Source of the DNA: Nitrosomonadales bacterium
GTDB lineage: Bacteria > Pseudomonadota > Gammaproteobacteria > Burkholderiales > Gallionellaceae
Length of the DNA: 33,427 bases
Assembly: GCA_016218475.1 (NCBI GenBank)
Contig: JACREB010000216.1
Coordinates: 1-33,427, forward strand
Direction of reading: 5' to 3'
Shown here: positions 5,991-21,258 of the stretch, piece by piece
Position numbering within the stretch: the first letter of the stretch is position 1
Layout of the letters: every line of letters begins with the position of its first letter
Notes under the pieces: model-generated
Databases searched by the model: none
What the model saw: the letters and a program-made list of their open reading frames with translations, nothing else
What the model was told of the DNA's origin: nothing
Made by a program: the position numbers and the translations under genes

Positions 5991-6102
5991 GTTTGAGTCT
6001 CCCTCCGAGAATGAATAATTGCCATGCTGTGCGCATTGCACAACCTGGCGCTTGGGGCGCATTAAAGTGTTGGTCAAAAAATCAGGCGCTGGGCATGGGG
6101 TT

Positions 6103-6229
6103 ATCGTTCCCATGCCTGTCCTGAGCCTGTCGAAGTGGCTCCAGCGTGGGAATGCAGTTTGTGCCGCTCCTGCGGCACGGGACGCAGAGCGTCCACAGAG
6201 GCGTTCCCACGGAGACCGTGGGAACGATG
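6103..6229. repeat. Composite palindromic repeat cluster, including a CCTGAGCCTGTCGAAG unit
   Basis: ATCGTTCCC..., GTGCCGCTCCTGCGGCAC and CGTTCCCACGGAGACCGTGGGAACG hairpins, with CCTGTCCTGAGCCTGTCGAAG in the first hairpin. Confidence 0.8.
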
Positions 6230-6368
6230 CAAAACTCCCTTGCCTACCAACACTTTCAAATGCACCCGGCACCTATACTGTATAGCACACAAACAATGCC
6301 ATGCACTACAATGAAAAGCTGGCCTCATCAACACGACTGCGGATACAGCAAAAAAACAGGCCGGTAAA

Positions 6369-14258: not shown

Positions 14259-14327
14259 GCGTGGCCTTTTGCACTAAAGCTTTATAACAACATCCATTTT
14301 ACGATGGAAGATTCGACAGAGGCATAA

Positions 14328-14470
14328 TCTTACTGTGTCACAAAGCGCTGAAGGGCGCATTGCGGCGTTAAAATCAGGCTCAAAATGCTCATTTACTACA
14401 TGTAAACTCCGCTTTTTCGCCCGATTTCGCCTTGCACCGCATCCCTTGATCGCTTTGTGACACAGTAAGA
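14328..14470. mobile_element. MITE-like palindromic element, copy 1
   Basis: Termini TCTTACTGTGTCACAAAGCG / CGCTTTGTGACACAGTAAGA are perfect inverted repeats; interior is an imperfect palindrome around TACATGTA; second copy at 33292. Confidence 0.75.
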
Positions 14471-14482
14471 ATAAAAATCGCA

Positions 14483-15071: not shown

Positions 15072-16043
15072 GTGAAAGCATCATTATTTCTGGATTTTGA
15101 AAACCCCATCGCCGAACTGGAAGAAAAAATCGAGCAACTGCGCTATGTGCAGGACGATTCGGCACTCGATATTGCGGATGAAATCACGCGCCTGTCCAAA
15201 AGGAGCGAGGCGCTGACCAAAGATATTTATGCCAAGCTTTCACCCTGGCAAATCTCGCAGGTTTCGCGCCATCCGCAACGCCCTTACACGCTGGATTACA
15301 TCGAAAACCTGTTCACCGACTTTGTGGAGCTTCACGGCGATCGCGTGTATGCAGACGACAAGGCCATCATCTGCGGTTTGGGGCGTTTCAACGGGCAAAG
15401 CGTGATGGTGATCGGCCATCAAAAAGGCCGCGACACCAAGGAAAAGATCGCGCGCAATTTCGGTATGCCGCGCCCCGAAGGCTACCGCAAGGCGATGCGC
15501 CTGATGCGCGCGGCGGAGAAATTCGGCATCCCCATCATGACTTTCATCGATACTCCAGGGGCTTATCCGGGTGTGGGTGCGGAAGAGCGCGGCCAGTCCG
15601 AGGCAATCGGGCGCAACTTGTATGAGATGACTGAATTGCGCGTGCCGATTATCTGCACCGTGATAGGCGAGGGCGGTTCTGGCGGCGCGCTGGCGATTGC
15701 GGTGGGCGATGTATTGCTTATGCTGCAATACAGCACTTACTCGGTGATTTCGCCGGAAGGCTGCGCTTCGATTCTGTGGAAAAGCGCGGAAAAAGCGCCG
15801 GATGCCGCGGAGACTTTGGGCATTACCGCGACGCGCCTGAAGACCTTGGGGCTGATAGACAAAATTATCAGCGAGCCGCTGGGCGGTGCGCATCGCGATT
15901 ATGCGGCGACCATGCAGAACGTGAAAAAAGCGTTGCAGGAAGCGCTCAAGGCCGCACAAAGCAAGCCGACGGCCACCTTGTTGCAGGACCGTTTCAACCG
16001 CCTGATGAGTTATGGCAAGTTCAAGGAAGCCAAACCCGGCTAA
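15072..16043 (+). CDS. accA: Acetyl-CoA carboxylase carboxyltransferase subunit alpha
   Basis: GTG start with upstream [68 protein letters not shown]. Confidence 0.96.
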
Positions 16044-17553
16044 TTTCACCGAGCGGGTCGCGGCACAGATCGCGCCGTTGCTTCCCGCGCACAGCTCGAT
16101 CCTGATCGGCCTGAGCGGCGGAGTGGATTCGGTGGTGCTGCTGCATCTGCTGCACAAACTCGCGCCCCGTTTTTCATGGCAGATATCCGCGCTGCATGTC
16201 CATCACGGCATCAGCCCGAACGCCAACAAATGGGCGGATTTTTGCGCCGATCTCTGTGCGCGCTACCTTGTTTCCCTGCATATCGAACACGTGGACATCG
16301 CGCCGCTGCGCGCGCACGGCATCGAAGCGGCGGCGCGCAAGCTTCGCCACGCGGCGTTTGCCGGCCAACCCTGTGATTTTGTGGCGCTGGCGCACCACGC
16401 CGACGATCAGGCGGAAACCCTGCTGCTGCAACTGTTGCGTGGCGCAGGAGTGCGTGGCGCAAGCGCCATGCCTGTCCTGAGCCAGTCGAAGCGGCCTGCC
16501 CTGAGCCTCCTGAGGTATCGAAGGGCGGAGCAACCGCCACTTACCGAATGCACAGCAGAGCCCAATTTTGTGCGCCCGCTGTTGCACTGCTCGCGGCAGG
16601 AAATTCTCGACTACGCCGTAGCGCATCATTTGCAGTGGATAGAAGACGAAAGCAACGCCGACGACAGCTATCCGCGCAATTTTTTGCGGCATCGCGTGAT
16701 GCCGTTGCTGGGTGAGAAATTTCCGGCCTGCCGCGACACCCTGGCGCGTAGCGCGCAGCATTTCGCCGAAGCGAGCGAACTGCTCGATGACTTGGCGCGG
16801 CTGGATGCACCAAACTTACTCCCCTCTCCCGCAGGGATTGAACAGGGCTTTTCTCGTTTGCCCCCTCTCCCGCTTGCGGGAGAGGGTTGGGGAGAGGGCT
16901 TCTCGGGGAGAGGGGCTGGGGGAGAGGGTTTGGGGAGGGAAGATGTCCACGATGAAACCCTTGAAATATCGCGCCTGCAATCCTTTTCTCACCCCCGAGC
17001 AAAAAATCTGCTGCGCTATTTTCTGCACAGTATCGGAGCGCCGATGCCGCAAGTCACACAACTGGACGATATGCTGCAACAGCTATGCAATGCGCGGCGA
17101 GATGCGGCGGTATGTGTCGAATATGGCGATGGCTGGCAGGTGCGCCGCTATCAGGGCAGGGTGTATGCGCTGCGCGCGCCGGGCGATTTCGACCGGAACC
17201 TTGTACTGACATGGCATGGCGAAGCGGAACTGGGCTGGCCTGCGTCGAATACACGGCTGCGCTTTGATCCCGCACATGCAACCGGCCTCAGCCTCGCGAA
17301 ATTGCAGCGCGCGCCGGTAACGCTACGCCTGCGGCACGGCGGCGAAACCCTGCACCACCACCCCAATGCCGCGACGCGCACACTGAAGAATCTGCTGCAG
17401 GAACACCGTGTCCCACCCTGGCAACGCGACCGTTTGCCGCTGCTGTATTGCGGCGAAGAACTGGTATGCGTGCCGGGTGTGGCGATTGCGGCGGAGTATC
17501 AGGCTGGTGCGGAAGAGGCGGGGGTGCAGTTTTGTGTTGTAAATTCAACCTGA
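16012..17553 (+). CDS. tilS: tRNA(Ile)-lysidine synthetase, with in-frame repeat-derived segments
   Basis: PP-loop [60 protein letters not shown]; overlaps accA end by 32 bp. Confidence 0.93.
16471..16527. repeat. CCTGAGCC..TCGAAG-type repeat pair inside tilS
   Basis: CCTGTCCTGAGCCAGTCGAAG and CCTGCCCTGAGCCTCCTGAGGTATCGAAGGG; related units at 6113-6134 and 19108-19127. Confidence 0.8.
16821..16940. repeat. CCCCTCTCCC / GGGAGAGGG repeat cluster inside tilS
   Basis: CCCCTCTCCCGCTTGCGGGAGAGGGTTGGGGAGAGGGC... read directly. Confidence 0.85.
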
Positions 17554-20951: not shown

Positions 20952-21008
20952 GATTGTGCCATTCTGTTCTATCAGCAGAGTGCAATCAAAAATGCTGGAA
21001 TTCTACTG

Positions 21009-21067
21009 GTAGCGTGCGCTGTGCGCACGACAATACGGCCATGAACCGTGCGCACAGCGCACGCTAC
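21009..21067. repeat. 21-bp perfect inverted repeat
   Basis: GTAGCGTGCGCTGTGCGCACG (21009-21029)/CGTGCGCACAGCGCACGCTAC (21047-21067). Confidence 0.9.
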
Positions 21068-21070
21068 GAA

Positions 21071-21162
21071 GGGTGCATTCGAAAGTGGTGGACAACAAGC
21101 AAAAGCCCCTCTCCCCTTGCGGGGTGAAAACCGCTACCCGTCCACCACTTTCAAATGCACCC
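21071..21162. mobile_element. 92-bp miniature inverted-repeat element with 9-bp target-site duplication
   Basis: Arms GGGTGCATTCGAAAGTGGTGGAC/GTCCACCACTTTCAAATGCACCC (22/23 match); flanked exactly by CGCTACGAA at 21062-21070 and 21163-21171. Confidence 0.75.
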
Positions 21163-21258
21163 CGCTACGAACGAAAGCAATCCTGAAGCTCCAGGAATTG
21201 TTATCATGTCCGACCTTGAAGGTACCCCGAATTTATTTCGCAACGAACAGGATCGCAA

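Follow-up and report, generated by a model that had tools for sequence, protein, structure and literature searches.

Introduction

Bacterial MITEs such as RUP, NEMIS/Correia, ERIC, Nezha and MITEAba12 are short, multicopy, mostly non-coding and intergenic elements, with terminal inverted repeats (TIRs) of the 20-bp class and a target duplication of fixed length. The family described here, with lengths of 92–543 bp, resembles them in these respects, and differs in that no insertion sequence (IS) with the same ends was found, several unrelated palindromic cores are carried, and DUF559 is present in some members. Target duplications of 9 bp are made by IS1, IS4/IS10/IS50, IS903, some IS256 and ISLre2 elements; these share the duplication length with the family, and several also have TIRs beginning with GG, but the ends are not recognisably common.

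REP/REPIN sequences moved by RAYT make no target duplication and consist of a 20–40-bp palindrome with a GTAG/CGTC tag at its end. In A. variabilis and H. neapolitanus, REP dimers have been described as parts of long palindromes, and the same paper cites REPs as IS targets (Di Nocera et al. 2013, PMC3733652). The inner cores GTAGCGTGCGC..., GTAGGGTGGGCA and GTAGGGCGG of the present family resemble GTAG/CGTC REPs in starting with GTAG, but here the outer shell generates 9-bp duplications and can enclose cores of several families. Assignment of the element to RAYT-moved REP/REPIN was rejected: it has TIRs and a 9-bp duplication, and the GTAG tag is found only on the neighbouring hairpin. No tyrosine transposase was seen in shell elements.

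EDxHD/Vsr-like nucleases (I-Bth0305I, Vsr and DUF559; PDB 3r3p, 1vsr and 3hrl) are related in sequence and predicted fold to the gene of the longer elements, which, unlike them, has no intron, intein or methylase context and lies between palindromes in a TIR shell. In the literature collection searched, no relevant report came up for the TIR sequence, for MITEs with DUF559 or for MITEs of Gallionella.

Results

The element occupies positions 21071–21162 (92 bp) of a 33,427-nucleotide stretch (the window) from the metagenome-assembled genome of a Gallionella-type, iron-oxidising bacterium of the Nitrosomonadales, between two copies of CGCTACGAA. The left TIR (GGGTGCATTCGAAAGTGGTGGAC, 21071–21093, plus strand, 23 nt) and the right TIR (GGGTGCATTTGAAAGTGGTGGAC on the minus strand, 21140–21162, 23 nt) are complementary at 22 of 23 positions, and 46 nt separate the arms. 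This core (21094–21139, plus strand) is made up of a subterminal arm AACAAGCAAAAG, a half palindrome CCCCTCTCCCCTTGCGGGG and a subterminal arm TGAAAACCGCTACCC. The 9-bp target-site duplications (21062–21070 and 21163–21171, unstranded) are identical and directly abut both TIR arms. Across the family, the shell ends span ~21 bp and read GGGTGC(A/G)(A/T)TYRAAAGTGKTGG, also given as GGGTGCATTYGAAAGTGKTGG. A first-pass annotation of the window had placed the element, its 23-bp TIRs and its perfect duplication correctly to the base, and had noted that a core motif is shared with tilS, which is the case: CCCCTCTCCCC recurs at 16905–16915 on the minus strand, giving two occurrences in the window against 0.01 expected, the tilS copy being without flanking TIRs.

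The left duplicate covers the last 6 bases of an older hairpin (21009–21067), an overlap also noted in the first pass, and the proposal that one repeat had landed in another was right: the hairpin forms the core of a superfamily member that is older and has been truncated. This target (20980–21067, plus strand) retains a decayed left shell end GAGTGCAATCAAAAATGCTGG (~20980–21000) followed by AATTCTACTGGTAGCGTGCGCTG, an arm AATTCTACTG beside the core, and a GTAG...CTAC hairpin core whose arms (21009–21029 and 21047–21067) pair at 21/21 positions; its right shell end is missing. The arm and core recur in complete shell elements (L166, L133 and L028), and in L166 TAATTCTACTGGTAGCGTGCGCTG adjoins the TIR. 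The GAGTGCAATCAAAAATGCTGG and AATTCTACTGGTAGCGTGCGCTG region thus represents the left-hand portion of a shell element with a GTAGCG core, and the MITE and the hairpin element are relatives.

Window CheD is 97% and 91% identical to CheD of two relatives (G016 and G020), in which the gene order (cheD, small ORF, gspE) is the same and ~200 bp including the hairpin and the MITE are absent; in G016, the equivalents of window positions 20963 and 21173 are linked by ~15 bases. The simplest reading of these alignments is that both insertions postdate the split from G016 and G020. The proposed comparison of orthologous cheD loci was thus borne out as to the missing insert, while a hairpin-bearing allele empty of the MITE was not found in either relative, both being without the hairpin too, and for this reason the pre-insertion site was deduced from the duplication.

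A search with the TIR pattern, allowing up to 3 mismatches, gave 18 matches in the element's own genome (2.3 Mb, 221 contigs, 86% complete) and 0 for the reversed-pattern control; since 9-bp duplications also recur at other copies, the combination of TIR and duplication is not due to chance. Paired ends in this genome are spaced 92–483 bp apart. The ends are present in a minority of relatives, namely 9 of 120 genomes of the family and, at 1 mismatch, 3 of 399 genomes of the order. Exact matching against 84,980 species genomes gave 25 stretches (Gallionella, Gallionellales, an uncultured Nitrosomonadales bin and Sulfuricella), and 56 ends were counted in Gallionella bin C24_metabat.bin.145. Searches of plasmids and phages gave chance-level matches only, and neither the TIR query nor the DUF559 protein query matched viral contigs. 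Multiple dispersed copies, together with orthologous sites that lack the insert, are what is expected of a MITE. A second, decayed shell element lies in the window at 6055–6267 (unstranded), with 5 mismatches in its left end, a right end GGGTGCATTTGAAAGTGTTGG at 6247–6267 (minus strand) and no clear duplication. One pair of ends 4.2 kb apart (G521:C151) was set aside as coincidence, as it encloses several genes, including one that from its ORF we take to be IS630-like, and its flanks do not match.

The set in which target duplications were examined comprised 55 non-redundant Gallionellaceae and Sulfuricella elements bearing these ends, and flanks swapped between different elements served as control (n = 2,970). 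The flanking 9-mers were alike at ≥7/9 positions in 34/55 elements, 14 of them perfectly, against 2/2,970 swapped pairs, so that 9-bp duplications at this boundary are shared by other copies; in a looser set, perfect 9-mers were found at 17/63 and perfect 10–12-mers at 0/63. Decay, recombination or mis-paired ends are possible causes in the 21/55 elements with no clear duplication. Duplications accompany all main core classes, with 9 bp as the length across them, and so belong to the shell and not to the core. They are also found at DUF559-carrying forms (C164, 8/9; C57, 7/9; G521:C235, 7/9; G523:C48, 9/9), and the 9-mers of the C164, C56 and C10 copies are different. At L078 (JAUYJO010000054.1, 1735–2300), two different shell elements stand in tandem, each bounded by the 9-mer ATGCCGCAG, in the order TSD-element-TSD-element-TSD, as if the second insertion had re-used the first one's duplication.

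The same genome holds a 483-bp element (C164:7846–8328) with a DUF559 ORF between CCCCTCTCCCC palindromes. The first 50–53 and last 39–42 bases of the 92-mer equal those of this element with 1 mismatch. Between them 391 bp have been lost, and a GGG microhomology (element positions 51–53, ~21121–21123) leaves the exact junction ambiguous. A 97-bp copy (C56) has a separate 386-bp deletion, likewise with 1 mismatch, and the C164, C56 and 92-bp copies carry the same difference between left and right TIR (C vs T). In these alignments the 92-bp element is clearly recognisable as an internal-deletion derivative of a ~480-bp DUF559-bearing parent. The deletion may have preceded insertion here, or may have taken place in situ after a longer form had inserted.

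The parent gene is assigned to DUF559 by Pfam (E = 1e-39) and is present in four shell elements, two in the own genome and one each in G521 and G523. These copies, each inserted elsewhere and spread over three genomes, show mostly synonymous differences (Ka/Ks 0.08–0.16; Fisher p 0.002 to 3e-7), a pattern indicating that the gene is under purifying selection. A sequence profile matched PDB 3hrl (E = 4e-40) and 3r3p (E = 0.006), and an AlphaFold model built from ten relatives (pLDDT 86, pTM 0.77) had 3hrl as its first match, followed by the homing endonuclease domain of I-Bth0305I (E = 4.5e-4), with a weak match to Vsr (E = 0.06). In homing endonuclease elements the nuclease cuts the empty site and the element is copied by gene conversion; the resemblance of the present elements to these is one of fold. 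PADLOC gave no clear defence-system link for DUF559 (best match to a short part of DpdF, E = 0.002).

At three further DUF559 loci (L088, L093 and L096, in G008, G013 and G010, respectively), CCCCTCTCCC-type palindromes lie on both sides of the gene and there is no GGGTGCA shell. This arrangement suggests that palindrome-DUF559-palindrome may be a unit of its own, later enclosed in the shell; these loci possibly represent an independent mobile unit. In an overly strict test, perfect 11-bp-arm hairpins were found on both sides of 2/26 DUF559 genes and on at least one side of 6/26 (one being an N run), against 0 and 7, respectively, of 818 controls.

The same ends surround the palindromes TTCGACAGGCTCAG, GCGGGCATCTTGCCCGC, GTAGCGTGCGCTGTGCGC, CTCCCCTTGTCAGGGG and GTAGGGCGGATGAGC. 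For GTAGGGTGGGCA and TCCCACGG...CCGTGGGA palindromes the same arrangement is less certain, the cases being single, decayed or nested. Subterminal arms are mostly tied to one core; at L064, L162 and L078:1744–2120 the left arm comes from one core lineage and the right arm from another, a sign that elements have recombined with one another. TIR subtypes (ATTYG..G, GATCA..T and AAATA..T) correlate partially with core and genome. Further palindromic elements are nested inside the shell elements L171 (G523:C48), L069 and L259, for example AACCAGCGACTTGGC...GCCTAGTCGAATGGCTAGTTG and another with ends near AGGGTAAATTTGTTCTCCAAA. The tilS gene (16012–17553) contains a naked CCCTCTCCC/GGGAGAGGG palindrome that includes CCCCTCTCCCC (~16862–16935); it is in frame and falls between the PP-loop domain and the substrate-binding domain of TilS, and the G016 orthologue is ~30 residues shorter at this site. 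Another inverted-repeat family in the window, ~149 bp with ~31-bp ends CTTACTGTGTCACAAAGCG..., is found at 14325–14473 and, at the contig end, 33299–33427, with exact 19-base end matches at L153, L172, L265 and L277.

Autonomous elements bearing these ends were sought without success in the own genome, in the searched Gallionellaceae genomes, among exact matches in the 84,980 species genomes and in viral contigs, and the full-length IS anticipated in the first pass did not come to light in any of these sets; MAG contigs break at repeats, which bears on the missing partner. End pairs at IS distance with matching flanks were absent from the data. Transposases of PF01609, PF00872, PF12762 and PF03400 are all absent from the own genome, and in carrier genomes those of the same four families, where flanks were readable, had other ends; the IS elements retrieved via PF01609, PF00872 and PF12762 were rejected as mobiliser, as their ends differ. 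Reading of flanks by this method can detect duplications, since an IS1595-type element (L241, G521:C214; ends CGTGCTTATCCGGTTGTTTCCCC) showed an 8-bp target duplication. The 92-bp element is without a transposase gene, longer family members encode DUF559 only, and a transposase gene is present in none of the elements that have these ends, in agreement with its earlier designation as non-autonomous. On the simplest reading, the trans-acting transposase has been lost, is unassembled, or belongs to a family outside the four searched.

Discussion

Very probably, the 92-bp element is a non-autonomous MITE, moved in trans, and a 391-bp deletion derivative of a DUF559-bearing element of ~480 bp. A transposase acting in trans would recognise the ~21-bp ends, and insertion at a 9-bp staggered cut would generate the duplication. 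The 92-bp copy derives from an internal 391-bp deletion at the GGG microhomology within the CCCCTCTCCCC palindromes, and sits at the edge of the older truncated superfamily member, downstream of cheD. For the cut-and-paste transposition proposed in the first-pass annotation, the target duplication is seen; excision is not shown by the data.

The nuclease might instead be the driver and not a passenger, cutting empty alleles in a homing-like manner or cutting element ends beside a transposase, with the 92-bp form a defective derivative. Purifying selection on the gene in its four copies, which stand at separate sites in three genomes, the match of the model to the I-Bth0305I homing domain together with the weaker Vsr and 3r3p matches, and the DUF559 genes lying between same-kind palindromes without a shell in G008, G013 and G010 are consistent with such a role. 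Most shell elements, though, are without DUF559 but do not differ in their ends or in having 9-bp duplications, so that DUF559 need not be element-encoded for insertion, and homing by itself does not create 9-bp target duplications. The selection could stem from a host or defence role, for which the PADLOC result gives no clear link, or could predate divergence of the copies. We regard a driving nuclease as unlikely.

That the element is a host regulatory hairpin or terminator downstream of cheD, and not mobile, is very improbable: it lies between co-directional genes and its predicted fold is very stable (−50.2 kcal/mol, z = −8.1), but TIRs of such length necessarily pair, making this stability a trivial consequence, Rfam gives no match, dispersed copies carry duplications elsewhere, and absence from orthologous loci contradicts this reading. 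A secondary effect on cheD mRNA is possible. It is equally hard to credit that the 9-bp repeats are accidental, CGCTACGAA being part of a hairpin and shell block that moves together with no separate insertion. The overlap of the left duplicate with the hairpin end would fit, as would the same hairpin core within the same kind of shell in sister species, but in those species the shell encloses the hairpin instead of adjoining it, 9-mers at the C164, C56 and C10 copies are different, the length of 9 bp holds across core classes, and no hairpin-CGCTACGAA-shell block was seen as a repeated unit among the loci read.

The deletion derivative is an ordinary MITE in kind; what is unusual is the exchangeable cores of a modular shell and the selected nuclease of its parent. 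It illustrates how tiny bacterial MITEs can arise, from a nuclease-bearing parent through microhomology deletion to a small derivative, and points to a selected role for the DUF559 nucleases, a widespread group that is still poorly understood. A more far-reaching and rather doubtful reading is a modular shell in which one transposable end set swaps or captures REP-like cores, including a selfish palindrome-DUF559-palindrome unit whose selected nuclease aids spread; if true, this would be a transposon shell with a homing-type nuclease in place of a transposase. The pairing of one end set with many unrelated palindromic repeats offers a possible dispersal route for palindromic repeats of proteobacteria.
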